From: Longimicrobiaceae bacterium
Lineage (GTDB): Bacteria > Gemmatimonadota > Gemmatimonadetes > Longimicrobiales > Longimicrobiaceae
DNA: 64,000 nt
Direction of reading: 5' to 3'
NCBI GenBank assembly: GCA_036375715.1
Contig: DASVBS010000053.1
Location: 1-64,000, forward strand
The notes beneath the pieces are model-generated. The model was not told the DNA's origin. It searched no databases and saw nothing but the letters and a program-made list of their open reading frames with translations. Made by a program: the position numbers and the translations under genes. Positions 40,997 to 45,495 of this stretch are shown here, piece by piece; the stretch's first letter is position 1; each line of letters begins with the position of its first letter.

Positions 40997-41542
40997 TCAG
41001 CGTCCCCACCAGCCCGTGATGGTCCTCAGCGCCTGCGCCCAGCCGAAGAGGACGAGGAAGAAGATCGCGCCCACCAAGGTCTGCTCTAGCAGTGCAAGGA
41101 AAACGTGCGGTTCGAAAAGGCTGAGTGCCGCCTGCACCGCCCCGTGGCCCTGCTGAAAAGGTACGGTTGGAAAGACCCGGGCGATGGCGTCCGGCTGGTT
41201 CAGCGTGAGCGGCCAGCCCAGCAGTACGTTCGTGCGCCCGCGGTCGTCGAGAAGGTCTACCAGCAAGTGTGAGCCGTAGCCGGCCCCCGCGAGGATCCCC
41301 CACCCCTGTCCGGCCACTGCCCCCAGCAGCGAAACGACGATCACCGCCAGCGCGCTGTGGGTGAATGTGCCGTGATAGCCGCCGCTTCTGCCCAGCAGTA
41401 GCCCAAGGATGATGTCGAGGTCGGGGCTCGCGGCCAGAGAGCCCGCGATCAACCAGGATCGCCAGCGCGGCAGCGGCGAGGCCACGCGAACCAGCTCGGC
41501 CATCCCGGCACCGACCAGGAAGTGAGCGGGAGGGAACGCCAC
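40997..41542 (-). CDS. YdjM-like membrane metal-dependent hydrolase family protein
   Basis: 181 residues with about four membrane spans. Family (PF04307) residues are present: SPDLDIILG, HGTFTHSAL and GYGSHLLVDLLDDRG, the His/Asp pattern expected of an intramembrane metal site. E. coli YdjM is LexA-controlled and otherwise uncharacterised. It lies 6 bases downstream of the phosphoribulokinase-like gene and with polA forms a three-gene unit on the minus strand. Confidence 0.85.
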   Translation of the reverse strand: MAFPPAHFLVGAGMAELVRVASPLPRWRSWLIAGSLAASPDLDIILGLLLGRSGGYHGTFTHSALAVIVVSLLGAVAGQGWGILAGAGYGSHLLVDLLDDRGRTNVLLGWPLTLNQPDAIARVFPTVPFQQGHGAVQAALSLFEPHVFLALLEQTLVGAIFFLVLFGWAQALRTITGWWGR

Positions 41543-41548
41543 GGCGAC

Positions 41549-42565
41549 TCAGGGACGCTCGACCGACGAGCGCAGCAGCGTCGTCAGGTGGGCGATCAGC
41601 ACTTCGACAACTGCGAGGGTCGGACGCACACGCGGCTCACCCGCGTCATCGGTGTAGCGGCCGACCCGCCCGGGTAGGTAGGTCTCCGGGAAGAAGCTTC
41701 CGGCCCAGCGATCCACGTCTTCCGACGTCATCTCGTTGCTCAGCTCGATGCGGACTTCGGAGCCATCATCGTGCTGTGTGGCGCCCCCCAGCCCTCCGAT
41801 CGGCTGCTCCCGCCGGGCCAGCTCCGCCGCCTTCCGGCGCAGGACGATCGAGGTACGGATCTCCTCGTCGCGCGCCTCTGAGGTCGGCAGCTCGTAACGG
41901 ACCACCACATCCGCACGCTGCGCCTGCGGCACCACGAACTCCTTCGAATCGAGCAGGTGTTGAACAATCTGGTTCAACACCTCCGCCTCGGTGTAACCGC
42001 GCGTCTGTACGTCACGCCGCAGCTTCCAGCGGAAGAGCAACTCCGGCTCCGGCTGGAGGAAGACCGAGAGGTCGTACATTGCCTGCAGCTCGTCGTTGGG
42101 AAAGCCCAGCAGTCCCCGAACGACGACGATCTCCCGCGGCTCGATCGGACGGATCGGTCCGAAGGTGCCGTCCGCGTGCTCGTAGGTCCGATTGCGAATG
42201 GTGCGCCCGCTACGCAGCAGGCGCAGGTGCTCCTGCATGAGCGAGAGGTTGTGCACCGCGGGATTGAGCGCGGTCATCCCGCGTTGCGCGCGCTCCTCGC
42301 GCGTGTAGCGGTGGTAGTCGTCCAACCTCAGGTCGGTGACGCGCCCGGGGCCCAGCAGCAGGGTGACCGCATCGGCCACCGTGCTCTTCCCGCTTCCCGA
42401 GTCACCGACGATGGCGATCAGGCGGGGGCGGCGCTCTTCCGAAGGGTCGGCTTCCGCGGACGCCTCTTGCGACTCCACGGCGATCGTACGGGCTACCGAG
42501 GGCGTAGGGGCGTGCAGGGGAGCGGCGTTGACCCGCATTGCTGCGGAATCATTGGGTTTGCTCAT
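41549..42565 (-). CDS. Phosphoribulokinase-like P-loop protein with altered active site
   Basis: About 338 residues from ATG 42565, which overlaps the polA stop (ATGA); ATG 42571 is also possible. After a 45-residue variable N-terminus, the kinase domain follows plant/cyanobacterial phosphoribulokinase closely: Walker A GDSGSGKS (54-61), LDDYHRYTREERAQRG (82-85 DDYH), TALNP, YEHADGTFGP, WKLRRDVQTRGY. Two acidic positions conserved in genuine PRK differ: the EGL motif reads RGL (150-152) and YLD reads FLQ. No RuBisCO or Calvin-cycle gene is in the window. It is possibly an unusual sugar or nucleoside kinase, or a non-catalytic regulator. Confidence 0.8.
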   Translation of the reverse strand: MSKPNDSAAMRVNAAPLHAPTPSVARTIAVESQEASAEADPSEERRPRLIAIVGDSGSGKSTVADAVTLLLGPGRVTDLRLDDYHRYTREERAQRGMTALNPAVHNLSLMQEHLRLLRSGRTIRNRTYEHADGTFGPIRPIEPREIVVVRGLLGFPNDELQAMYDLSVFLQPEPELLFRWKLRRDVQTRGYTEAEVLNQIVQHLLDSKEFVVPQAQRADVVVRYELPTSEARDEEIRTSIVLRRKAAELARREQPIGGLGGATQHDDGSEVRIELSNEMTSEDVDRWAGSFFPETYLPGRVGRYTDDAGEPRVRPTLAVVEVLIAHLTTLLRSSVERP

Positions 42566-45495
42566 TTGCATTCAAGCCAGTTCATCCCGACGCCGGTCTC
42601 CACCCGGAGCGGGACGGAGAGCTCGGCAGCCGACTCCATCCGCTCGCGCAGGATCTCCAGGGTCCGTTCCTCCGCGCCGCGTTCCGCCTCCACCAGCAGT
42701 TCGTCGTGGACCTGGAGGAGCATTCGCGCGGGAACGCCCTCCTCGCGGAAGGCGCGGTGGATCTCGATCATCGCCATCTTGATCAGGTCCGCGGCCGTAC
42801 CCTGGATCGGCGCGTTGGTAGCCACGCGCTCGCCGAACGAGCGGATGTTGTAGTTGCGCGAGCTGATCTCCGGGATGTAGCGGCGGCGTCCGGTCAGGGT
42901 CTGGACGTAGCCCTGCTGGCGCGCCAGCTCGATCTGCGAATCGAGATATTTGCGAACGCCGGGGAAGCGCTCGAAGTAGCGATCGATGAACTCGCGTCCC
43001 TCTGCGTTGCTGACGCCCAGCTGCTGCGACAGCGAGAAGGAGCCGATCCCGTAGATGACGGCGAAGTTCACCGTCTTCGCCCGGTCGCGCATCTCGCGCG
43101 TGACCTGTTCCGGCTCCACTCCGAAGATCAGCGCCGCGGTCTGGCGGTGGATGTCCTCGCCCCTGCGGAAGGCATCCACGAACGCCGGGTCGCCCGAGTA
43201 GTGGGCGAGGATGCGCAGCTCGATCTGCGAGTAGTCCGCCGAAACGAATACATGGCCTTCGGCGGGGATGAACCCACGGCGGATCTCCGCGCCGACCTCC
43301 GTGCGGATCGGGATGTTTTGCAGGTTTGGATCAGCCGACGAGAGCCGACCCGTAGCCGCCACGGTCTGGTTGAACGAGGTGTGCAGCCGTCCCGTCTCCG
43401 GGTTGACCTGTCGCGGCAACGCGGTGACGTAGGTTGATTGCAGCTTGTCCAGCTGCCTGTACTCCATCAACAGGATCGGCAGCTCGTATCCCTGCGCCGC
43501 CAGCGCTTCCAGCACCGACGCGTCGGTGGAGGGGCCCGTCTTGGTGCGCCGGATCACCGGCAGCTTCAGCCGCTCGAAGAGAATCTCCCGGAGCTGCGGG
43601 TTCGAGTTGATGTTGAAGGTGGTACCCGCGACTTCGTGGATACGCTGCTCCAACACGGCCAGCTGCGAGGCGAGCTTGACGCGCAGCTCCTCGAAAAACT
43701 CCTCGTCGATGCGGATCCCCGCCCACTCCATCTCCGCGAGCACCTCTACCAGCGGCATCTCGATCCGGCGGAAGAGGTCCTCGAGCTTCAGCTCGTGCAG
43801 TTGCGGCGCGAAGAGCTCGGCGAGCTGGAGGGCGATGTCTGCGTCCTCGCAGGCATAGTCGCGACAGCGTTCGAGCTCTACTTCGGCGAAGGTGACCTGG
43901 TTCTTGCCCTTCCCCAGGAGCTCTTCGTAGCTGATGGTCCGGTGGTCGAGGTGCTGCAGCGCCAGGCCGTCGAGGCTGTGCTCCCGGCGCCCCGGATCGA
44001 GGAGGTAGCTCGCCACCATGGTGTCGAAGTCCAACCCCCGCAGCTGAATTCCCGCCCGCCGGAGAACCAGTAAGTCGTATTTCAGGTTCTGGCCGACCTT
44101 GGCGATCCCGGGGTCTTCCAGCACCTCGACCAGGGCTTGCAGCTCGTCAGATAAAATTGGCGGCAGGTTCAGCGATGGCTCTTCGAGCGGTTGCGAAAAC
44201 AGCGACGGCTCCCCGCCGCGCCCGCCACCTCCGGAAGCATGCACGGTCTGACGGGCGTCTTCCGCCGCGTTCGCCGCTCGTCGCACGTGTCCGAAGGGAA
44301 GGTAGTAGGCCTCACCAGGCTGCAAAGCGATGGAGATCCCGACGAGGTCCGACCGGATCGGATCCGAAGTCGTTGTCTCCGTGTCCAGCGCGATCCGCCC
44401 GAGTGAGCGGATCCGTTCCACCAGCTCAGCCACCTCCGCCGGGGATTGCAGCAAGCGGTACGAAACCTCGCGCCTCGTCTCGCTCGGCTGGGGCGCGGCA
44501 TAGTCGCGGACGAGGGAGTTGAACTCCAGGGAGAGAAACAGCTCGCGCAGTCTATCCCTGTCCGGTTCCTGCCGCCGCAAGCTGTCCAGGTCCAGCTCGA
44601 TCGGCAGGTCCGTCCGGATGGTGACGAGTTGCTTCGAGAGCAGTGCCTGCGGGGCGTTCGCCAGCAACGCCTCGCGCGGCCGCTTCCCCGGGATCTCTTC
44701 GGCCCGGCGGACGATCTCCTCCACCGGTCCGAACTTCTCGATGAGCTGGATAGCAGTCTTCGGCCCGATGCCCGGAACCCCCGGTACATTGTCGGAGCTG
44801 TCACCGATCAGGCCGAGATAGTCGACCACCCGCTCGGGCGGCACGCCGAGTCGCTCGTGGGCGTTGTTGACGTCGACCCACTCCTCGTCCACCGCCGCCG
44901 GTCCACCACGACCCGGATTGAGCAGGCACACCCCGTCCTTGATCAGCTGATAGAAATCCTTGTCGCCGGAGACGATCACCGTCTCGACCCCGACTTCACC
45001 CGCCTTGCGGGCGAGCGTTCCGATGACGTCGTCCGCCTCATAGCCGGGCAGCTCGAGAACGGGGATGTGGAAGGCGTCGATGATGTCCCGCACGCGCGGC
45101 AGCGACGCCTCCAACTCGGTCGGCATCTTCTCCCGCGTAGCCTTGTAGTCGGGATAGATCTCGTGCCGCTCGGAGGTGCCGGCGTCAAAGACCACGCCGA
45201 AATAATCCGGGTCGTGCTCCTCGATGATCTTGAGCAGGAACTTGGTCACCCCCCACGCTGCCGAGGTGTTCTCGCCGCGCGAGGAGATCAGCGGCTTGGA
45301 GATGAAGGCGAAGAACGCGCGGTAGATCAGCGCGTACCCATCGACCAGGTAAAGACGCGGCCGGGTTTTCTCGGGGAGTTGCAAAGCGCTACGGTGACGG
45401 TCGGAGAAACTGCGTCGGCGCGTCGAAAGCGCCTGCGGGCGCGGGGCAATGTAGAATGCTGTCGGCGGAGTCGCAAAGCATTCGCGCGCCGCCAC
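42562..45495 (-). CDS. polA: DNA polymerase I
   Basis: About 930-977 residues, all three domains. The 5'-nuclease (YLVDGYALIYRAFFAF near 50, GYEADDVIGTLA, VSGDKDFYQLI, GDSSDNVPGVPGIGPKTA) is intact. The 3'-5' proofreading domain has DTETT, GQNLKYDLLVLRRAG and YACEDADI. The polymerase domain shows GRLSSADPNLQNIPIR, VSADYSQIELRILAHYSGD, RAKTVNFAVIYGIG and LQVHDELLVE. The longest frame begins at a GTG; conserved sequence begins only near residue 47, and a TTG at 45384 is an alternative, so the start is uncertain. Replication/repair polymerase; first of the polA/PRK-like/ydjM-like unit. Confidence 0.95.
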   Translation of the reverse strand: MAARECFATPPTAFYIAPRPQALSTRRRSFSDRHRSALQLPEKTRPRLYLVDGYALIYRAFFAFISKPLISSRGENTSAAWGVTKFLLKIIEEHDPDYFGVVFDAGTSERHEIYPDYKATREKMPTELEASLPRVRDIIDAFHIPVLELPGYEADDVIGTLARKAGEVGVETVIVSGDKDFYQLIKDGVCLLNPGRGGPAAVDEEWVDVNNAHERLGVPPERVVDYLGLIGDSSDNVPGVPGIGPKTAIQLIEKFGPVEEIVRRAEEIPGKRPREALLANAPQALLSKQLVTIRTDLPIELDLDSLRRQEPDRDRLRELFLSLEFNSLVRDYAAPQPSETRREVSYRLLQSPAEVAELVERIRSLGRIALDTETTTSDPIRSDLVGISIALQPGEAYYLPFGHVRRAANAAEDARQTVHASGGGGRGGEPSLFSQPLEEPSLNLPPILSDELQALVEVLEDPGIAKVGQNLKYDLLVLRRAGIQLRGLDFDTMVASYLLDPGRREHSLDGLALQHLDHRTISYEELLGKGKNQVTFAEVELERCRDYACEDADIALQLAELFAPQLHELKLEDLFRRIEMPLVEVLAEMEWAGIRIDEEFFEELRVKLASQLAVLEQRIHEVAGTTFNINSNPQLREILFERLKLPVIRRTKTGPSTDASVLEALAAQGYELPILLMEYRQLDKLQSTYVTALPRQVNPETGRLHTSFNQTVAATGRLSSADPNLQNIPIRTEVGAEIRRGFIPAEGHVFVSADYSQIELRILAHYSGDPAFVDAFRRGEDIHRQTAALIFGVEPEQVTREMRDRAKTVNFAVIYGIGSFSLSQQLGVSNAEGREFIDRYFERFPGVRKYLDSQIELARQQGYVQTLTGRRRYIPEISSRNYNIRSFGERVATNAPIQGTAADLIKMAMIEIHRAFREEGVPARMLLQVHDELLVEAERGAEERTLEILRERMESAAELSVPLRVETGVGMNWLECK

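Follow-up and report, generated by a model that had tools for sequence, protein, structure and literature searches.

A phosphoribulokinase-like protein family of Longimicrobiaceae with arginine in place of the Glu131-type acid

Members of the family Longimicrobiaceae (phylum Gemmatimonadota) encode a phosphoribulokinase (PRK)-like protein in which a conserved active-site acid has been replaced by arginine, and no RuBisCO was found in any of the 20 family genomes searched for it. PRK is regarded as an enzyme dedicated to the formation of ribulose 1,5-bisphosphate (RuBP). Judging from conserved residues, tree position, and genome content, we consider it about an even bet that this protein descends from the Calvin-cycle PRK but has become independent of RuBisCO, with its pocket remodelled, and that it probably still acts as an ATP-dependent sugar-phosphate kinase.

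The gene, its neighbors, and its distribution

The gene was analyzed in a window of 64,000 nucleotides, the whole stretch of DNA under study, from contig DASVBS010000053.1 of a Longimicrobiaceae bacterium (assembly GCA_036375715.1). Its features are as follows.

41549..42565, minus strand: PRK-like gene, 338 aa from the ATG at 42565 (Pfam PF00485, 2e-33)
42562..42565, minus strand: ATGA overlap, formed by the polA stop codon TGA and the start codon ATG of the PRK-like gene (read in the sequence)
42562..45495, minus strand: polA (DNA polymerase I), the upstream partner in a presumed operon (Pfam DNA_pol_A, 4e-161)
40997..41542, minus strand: gene for a YdjM-like membrane protein, just downstream of the PRK-like gene (Pfam YdjM, 1.3e-10)
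42380..42406, minus strand: P-loop GDSGSGKST, residues 56 to 64 (translation and alignment)
42311..42322, minus strand: DDYH, residues 84 to 87 (translation; Asp84 aligns with the base Asp42 of Rhodobacter sphaeroides PRK)
42116..42118, minus strand: codon of Arg152, in VRGLLG (translation; aligned with Glu131 of R. sphaeroides PRK)

The open reading frame itself spans positions 41549 to 42571 on the minus strand (340 aa) and has Met at codons 1 and 3; the ATG at 42565 is the third codon and lies within the ATGA overlap. Residues are counted here from 42571, so that R150 and Q171, as numbered from 42565 in an earlier sequence-only reading, become R152 and Q173. The fold motifs listed in that reading (GDSGSGKS, DDYH, TALNP, YEHADGTFGP, and RRDVQTRGY) are all present in the translation, as are VRGLL and FLQ, and the overlap with the polA stop codon that it described can be read directly as ATGA, on the minus strand, which it had left unstated.

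The same reading proposed that the gene is coupled to polA, and this holds in part. Counting the window, 9 of the 15 orthologs have polA as their immediate upstream neighbor on the same strand, and thus the link is common, not obligatory. In these nine, the end of the polA match is 146 to 560 bp from the P-loop motif; in two other genomes polA is on the same strand farther upstream (~3.2 kb in G009 and ~5.4 kb in G018), and it was not seen within the stretches examined around the orthologs of G006, G007, G015, and G016. A ydjM gene is found just downstream in 5 of the 15 orthologs, again counting the window and within the stretches examined. No gene that would make or use a product was recognised beside the PRK-like gene. 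A methyladenine DNA glycosylase gene adjoins the ortholog in G007, G016, and G018 (L073, L071, and L075), all three without an adjacent polA. A conserved DNA-repair operon was considered and rejected, given that polA adjoins the gene in 9 of 15 cases; the glycosylase gene is the neighbor in 3 of the other 6, and a link to DNA repair is suggestive at most. The overlap with polA would set the expression of the gene, as a transcriptional address, rather than mark a DNA-repair role or pathway.

Strong matches to the protein (E value below 1e-90) are found in 15 of 61 genomes searched, all within Longimicrobiaceae. Of the 21 genomes of this family, 15 (that of the window included) carry an ortholog, the other 14 orthologs being 54 to 65% identical to the window protein, and 6 are without the gene. 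A separate scan of genome contigs gave only two loci, which lie on contigs equal in length to those of G004 and G006 and were therefore left out of the count. One ortholog, L017, contains N runs and was left out of the alignment, the tree, and the comparison of family positions with those of other PRKs, all of which therefore include 14 orthologs. A search of plasmids revealed no close relative, identity being under 60% in 49 of 49 records.

The PRK-like gene is real and conserved. A decaying, functionless leftover of a lost Calvin cycle might be expected to occur where RuBisCO is lacking and to be missing from some genomes, as is the case here; however, the frame is open in 15 genomes, 92 columns are invariant among the 14 aligned orthologs, and the dN/dS values of five ortholog pairs (0.07, 0.23, 0.26, 0.37, and 0.46) indicate purifying selection. 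We therefore regard decay as highly improbable.

The view of the protein as a divergent PRK without RuBisCO, which had been based on the window, is borne out by the search of its full genome. With Pfam profile PF00016 at an E value of 0.001, no RuBisCO or RuBisCO-like match was found in any of the 20 Longimicrobiaceae genomes tested (20 of the 21, G019 being left out, and several of them incomplete), the genome of the window included, and the latter had no RuBisCO large-chain match at an E value of 0.1 either. A hidden RuBisCO was also considered and set aside on these results, four genomes having been searched again. Thus, none of these 20 genomes has the RuBisCO match that was taken as the sign of a Calvin-cycle role. 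Apart from the PRK-like protein, the window genome has a single PF00485 match, a type I pantothenate kinase (L002; 469.4 bits, with a cut-off of 235), and hence no PF00485-type uridine kinase was found there, unlike in many other Longimicrobiaceae genomes, which have a second, uridine-kinase-like PF00485 match.

Active-site residues

The Glu131-type acid is viewed as essential in PRK, where it is placed on the metal side of the active site. Glu131 mutants of the Rhodobacter enzyme were reportedly characterized kinetically by the Miziorko group in the 1990s. In the alignment with R. sphaeroides PRK, this position is occupied by Arg152, and an Arg is found there in all 15 orthologs, the window included. 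The change from EGL to RGL pointed out in the sequence-only reading is thus neither an error nor a private mutation, and a sequencing or assembly error is ruled out by its presence in 15 of 15 genomes. The Longimicrobiaceae family therefore has no acid at the Glu131 position. The second acid said to be lost, that of YLD (FLQ in the window protein), did not withstand the comparison. At the corresponding position, two solved cyanobacterial PRKs (9qkn and 9qko) have Ala and that of R. sphaeroides has Val, and among the 15 orthologs the position proposed for a conservation check is variable (Tyr in 6, Gln in 5, His in 2, and Asp and Cys in 1 each). This half of the earlier argument therefore fails, and we rejected FLQ as a lost acid.

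Apart from Glu131, the window protein retains every aligned catalytic and sugar-phosphate residue, including the Lys and Thr of the P-loop. Asp42, His45, Arg49, and His100 of R. sphaeroides PRK (1a7j; L082) align with Asp84, His87, Arg91, and His132 of the window protein, and Lys165, Arg168, Asp169, and Arg173 align with Lys183, Arg186, Asp187, and Arg191. The fold match between the two proteins has a Z score of 16.9 at 16% identity. A catalytic Asp-His pair has been named (PMC9978339), and its spacing of 48 residues is the same as that of Asp84 and His132. For the Methanospirillum PRK, Arg59, Arg62, Tyr98, and His100 have been named as sugar-phosphate residues and Ser31 and Thr32 as those of the P-loop (PMC5241800); Arg91, Arg94, Tyr130, and His132 of the window protein align with the former four and are all kept. 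The catalytic Asp-His pair and the sugar-phosphate residues of PRK are thus in place, and nine of these positions (Asp84, Arg91, Arg94, Tyr130, His132, Lys183, Arg186, Asp187, and Arg191) are identical in all 14 aligned orthologs as well as in all 14 comparison PRKs. Other positions are less strictly kept: His87 is found in 14 of the 15 orthologs and is replaced by Leu in L011, and the P-loop residue after Lys is Ser in 9 orthologs, Asn in 5, and His in 1. The P-loop Ser has a role in Mg2+ binding, and its loss in 6 of 15 orthologs suggests that those proteins have a weak Mg2+ site or none.

These losses bring up the main rival to our reading, a pseudokinase that would bind a nucleotide, a pentose phosphate, or both but transfer no phosphate, and would serve as a metabolite sensor or a partner of another enzyme. 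The acid-to-Arg change in 15 of 15 orthologs and the Asn or His in the P-loop of 6 of them are what such a protein might show; a long stem branch and a missed NCBIfam PRK cut-off (see below) and the lack of a RuBisCO that would use RuBP also agree with it. However, none of the 14 aligned orthologs departs from the Asp84-His132 pair, Lys183, or Asp187, a protein that only binds its ligands would have no need to retain the base, and there is no constant partner gene, with polA adjoining in 9 of 15 cases, ydjM in 5 of 15, and the methyladenine glycosylase gene in 3. All in all, a pseudokinase seems to us a serious but rather unlikely alternative.

Several positions are switched throughout the family compared to other PRKs. 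The switches that are fixed or nearly fixed are N107 to His, P/A128 to Arg, R/K179 to Leu, R205 to His, and R/K217 to Ala or Ser, together with E/H152 to Arg; the remaining swaps mostly involve small or hydrophobic residues. At positions 205 and 217, where all 14 comparison PRKs have Arg or Lys, the basic residues have been lost from the Longimicrobiaceae family. This comparison was made between 14 family rows and 14 rows of other PRKs, of which the four PDB rows are fragments; L044, L049, L052, and the Hirschia and Azospirillum rows were excluded by choice because they are odd at the P-loop or at the Glu131 site, and R. sphaeroides PRK is also absent from this set. That three basic residues have disappeared and two have been gained throughout the family is more suggestive of a remodelled pocket than of decay.

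Relatives, phylogeny, and fold

The profile searches covered two overlapping samples, one from the phylum (298 genomes) and one from the class (394 genomes), all genome searches being confined to Gemmatimonadota. Matches at 1e-35 were found in 15 genomes of the phylum sample and 25 of the class sample. Outside Longimicrobiaceae, these comprise 11 proteins in 10 genomes, which differ at the Glu131 site: it is His in six (L045 to L048, L050, and L052), Thr in L049, Arg in L044, and Glu in L051, L110, and L111. The His and Thr forms come with RuBisCO. A large-chain match is present in each of the six genomes that encode them (G119, G256, G260, G287, G207, and G074), and each of the seven PRKs shares its contig with such a match, whereas none was found in the four genomes with Arg or Glu forms outside the family. 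Contig ends truncate the RuBisCO matches next to L045, L047, and L052, and the match next to L045 is on the opposite strand.

By Pfam matches, the gene order rbcS, CbbX-like AAA gene, and PRK is found in G287, G207, G260, and contig C24 of G119. In the G074 locus the AAA gene is likewise confirmed by Pfam, and a 138-aa open reading frame sits in the place of rbcS. The large subunits of G287, G207, and G074 contain the GGLDF-K-DDE stretch, which we take to be the active-site motif of the RuBisCO large subunit. In G256 (L063:5120-7489), a RuBisCO large subunit gene (460 aa) is followed directly by that of the His PRK, with no small-subunit gene between them; the best NCBIfam model for this large subunit is the general one. 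In G074, G256, G260, and G287, no PF00485 match other than the His protein is found at 1e-6. There are two such matches in G119, both with His, one of which has GRST and DDYL, and in G207 the Thr form is accompanied by a uridine kinase and by another PRK, which lies near another RuBisCO. Two of these proteins, L052 (G119:C24; GRST and DDYL) and L049 (G207:C222; GKRT), have a further eroded P-loop and come from genomes that encode a second PRK, yet they lie beside RuBisCO. Type IC/ID RuBisCO together with PRK genes has been described in genomes of Gemmatimonadota from wastewater and soda lake sediment (PMC10581226), which fits these loci.

Thus, the presence of the acid does not go with that of RuBisCO among the relatives, so that its absence alone cannot mean that PRK function has been lost, and with seven acid-free PRKs on RuBisCO contigs, the acid is unreliable as a defining trait of PRK. 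These His and Thr forms suggest that natural PRKs can do without the Glu131-type acid. However, the His PRKs, which are predicted enzymes, are only a partial precedent for the Longimicrobiaceae protein because a change to Arg is more radical than one to His. The two PRKs linked to RuBisCO or tkt that were seen on named plasmids (Allomeiothermus and Mycobacterium) have Glu at this site, which also speaks against a full precedent.

The His PRKs adjoining RuBisCO bear on another explanation, that the Longimicrobiaceae protein is an ordinary PRK that still makes RuBP, whether as a side activity, as a metabolite for signaling, or to supply an unrecognised enzyme that uses RuBP. It would agree with the retention of all four sugar-phosphate residues named in PMC5241800, and a signaling role of PRK has been reported for Rhodobacter (PMC4806589). 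Nevertheless, the absence of a PF00016 match from all 20 family genomes tested and the loss of the basic residues at positions 205 and 217, where every one of the 14 comparison PRKs has Arg or Lys, make such an enzyme improbable.

A tree of 44 rows, from which L017 and R. sphaeroides PRK were left out, bears on the proposed comparison with the PRK families. The Longimicrobiaceae family and L044 form a clade (97/94), the His and Thr PRKs form a separate one (94/91), and a third (96/93) unites 9qkn, 9qko, the Glu forms, and the Mycobacterium row; uridine kinases stand apart (100/100). The stem branch of the family is long, at 1.36 changes per column. The joins of 5b3f with 6kev and of Hirschia with Azospirillum are unsafe because of long branches.

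The window protein scores 116.3 bits with Pfam PF00485 (gathering cut-off, 22 bits); with the NCBIfam PRK model NF005655 (PRK07429; cut-off, 236 bits), it and the ortholog L005 fall short, with 213.7 and 213.6 bits, whereas two His PRKs (323.3 and 349.5 bits), one Glu form (304.7 bits), and L044 (276.6 bits) pass. Against the NCBIfam uridine kinase equivalog cut-offs of 180 and 220.3 bits it scores 84.1 and 73.7. Uridine kinases (Udk) share PF00485 with the window protein but have an acid (Asp or Glu) at the Glu131 site in all 11 Gemmatimonadota rows and reach Z scores of 14.2 at most, and a uridine kinase is ruled out by the clade, the motif at this site, and the cut-offs.

The structure was modelled from an alignment of three rows (pLDDT, 66.5; pTM, 0.68), with pLDDT under 50 at residues 1 to 46 and 84 to 88, the latter at the catalytic Asp. 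In structural comparisons, Foldseek among them, this predicted model matches PRK chains over both domains, residues 41 to 340, with Z scores of 16.9 to 23.7, so that the predicted fold is that of PRK, including the C-terminal domain. The closest solved relatives by sequence are 9qkn and 9qko, followed by archaeal, cyanobacterial, and plant PRKs and then by uridine kinases.

By both sequence and fold, the best match is the "Cyanobacteria specific PRK" (9qkn, 9qko, and 9qkp, from Gloeocapsa and Chroococcidiopsis/Hyella; phmmer, 1.7e-47), which aligns over 280 to 288 residues of the model with Z scores of 22.8 to 23.7, the highest being that of 9qkp. These proteins share the DDYHRY, YxH, and RD-RG motifs with the window protein but have Glu in VEGLLG and lack the family's switches at positions 107, 128, 179, 205, and 217. 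The RuBisCO-contig PRKs of Gemmatimonadota belong to the same phylum and fold family and likewise lack the acid but differ in the shared contig with RuBisCO, in passing the NCBIfam PRK cut-off (the two tested), and in forming a separate clade. L044 has Arg at the site and Ser60, Leu168, and Arg246 in common with the family, with which it groups in the tree; unlike the family, it has the usual PRK residues at 107, 128, 179, 205, and 217 and passes the PRK cut-off. Its gene, in G136 (L061:3552-6252), directly precedes those of a P-II nitrogen regulator and an ammonium transporter, and that genome has no RuBisCO match. PRK-like sequence also forms the C-terminal part, with SGLH and GKDT, of two ~700-aa proteins on alphaproteobacterial plasmids (L080:2801-4900 and L081:2777-4894), whose genes have phospholipase C-like and HAD hydrolase genes on either side.

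Among the literature matches listed, there was no paper on 9qkn, 9qko, or 9qkp and, judging by titles and the beginnings of abstracts with few subscription journals covered, none evidently devoted to the Longimicrobiaceae family or to PRKs with His or Arg at this site.

A putative repurposed kinase

The suggestion, made from the sequence alone, that the protein phosphorylates a different substrate or is regulatory has fared unevenly. The RuBisCO-free genomes, the fixed Arg, and the coordinated switches fit a changed substrate or role, but the lost acid is no proof of it, and this argument has been weakened because seven PRKs of the same phylum on RuBisCO contigs have His or Thr at the site. 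As a kinase independent of RuBisCO, the protein would still bind ATP and a phosphorylated pentose-like sugar. Most likely, it transfers phosphate, since a mere binder would need neither the base nor Lys183 and Asp187. Arg152 would take over part of the charge compensation that normally comes from Mg2+ and Glu. The substrate or product would no longer be tied to carbon fixation, and the substrate is probably not ribulose 5-phosphate alone. Counted against a repurposed kinase are the P-loop Ser losses, the Leu in place of His87 in L011, the long stem, the missed NCBIfam cut-off, the 6 of 21 genomes without the gene, and the lack of a product-related gene beside it.

A broader scenario, which we offer tentatively and consider doubtful as a whole, is a radiation of PRKs within Gemmatimonadota, in which working Calvin-cycle PRKs (the His and Thr forms) would have lost the acid and a branch without RuBisCO would have acquired Arg instead. 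Within Longimicrobiaceae, this branch might have given rise to a kinase of a different phosphosugar, with a direct contact of Arg with the ATP phosphates replacing part of the Mg2+ site.

For Longimicrobiaceae, a PRK match is no evidence of CO2 fixation. The His and Thr PRKs found on RuBisCO contigs bear on the engineering of PRK and on genome annotation, in which PRK is used to mark autotrophy. A conserved, RuBisCO-free branch with a charge reversal in its active site provides a natural test that can tell the PRK residues used for catalysis from those that govern the choice of substrate.
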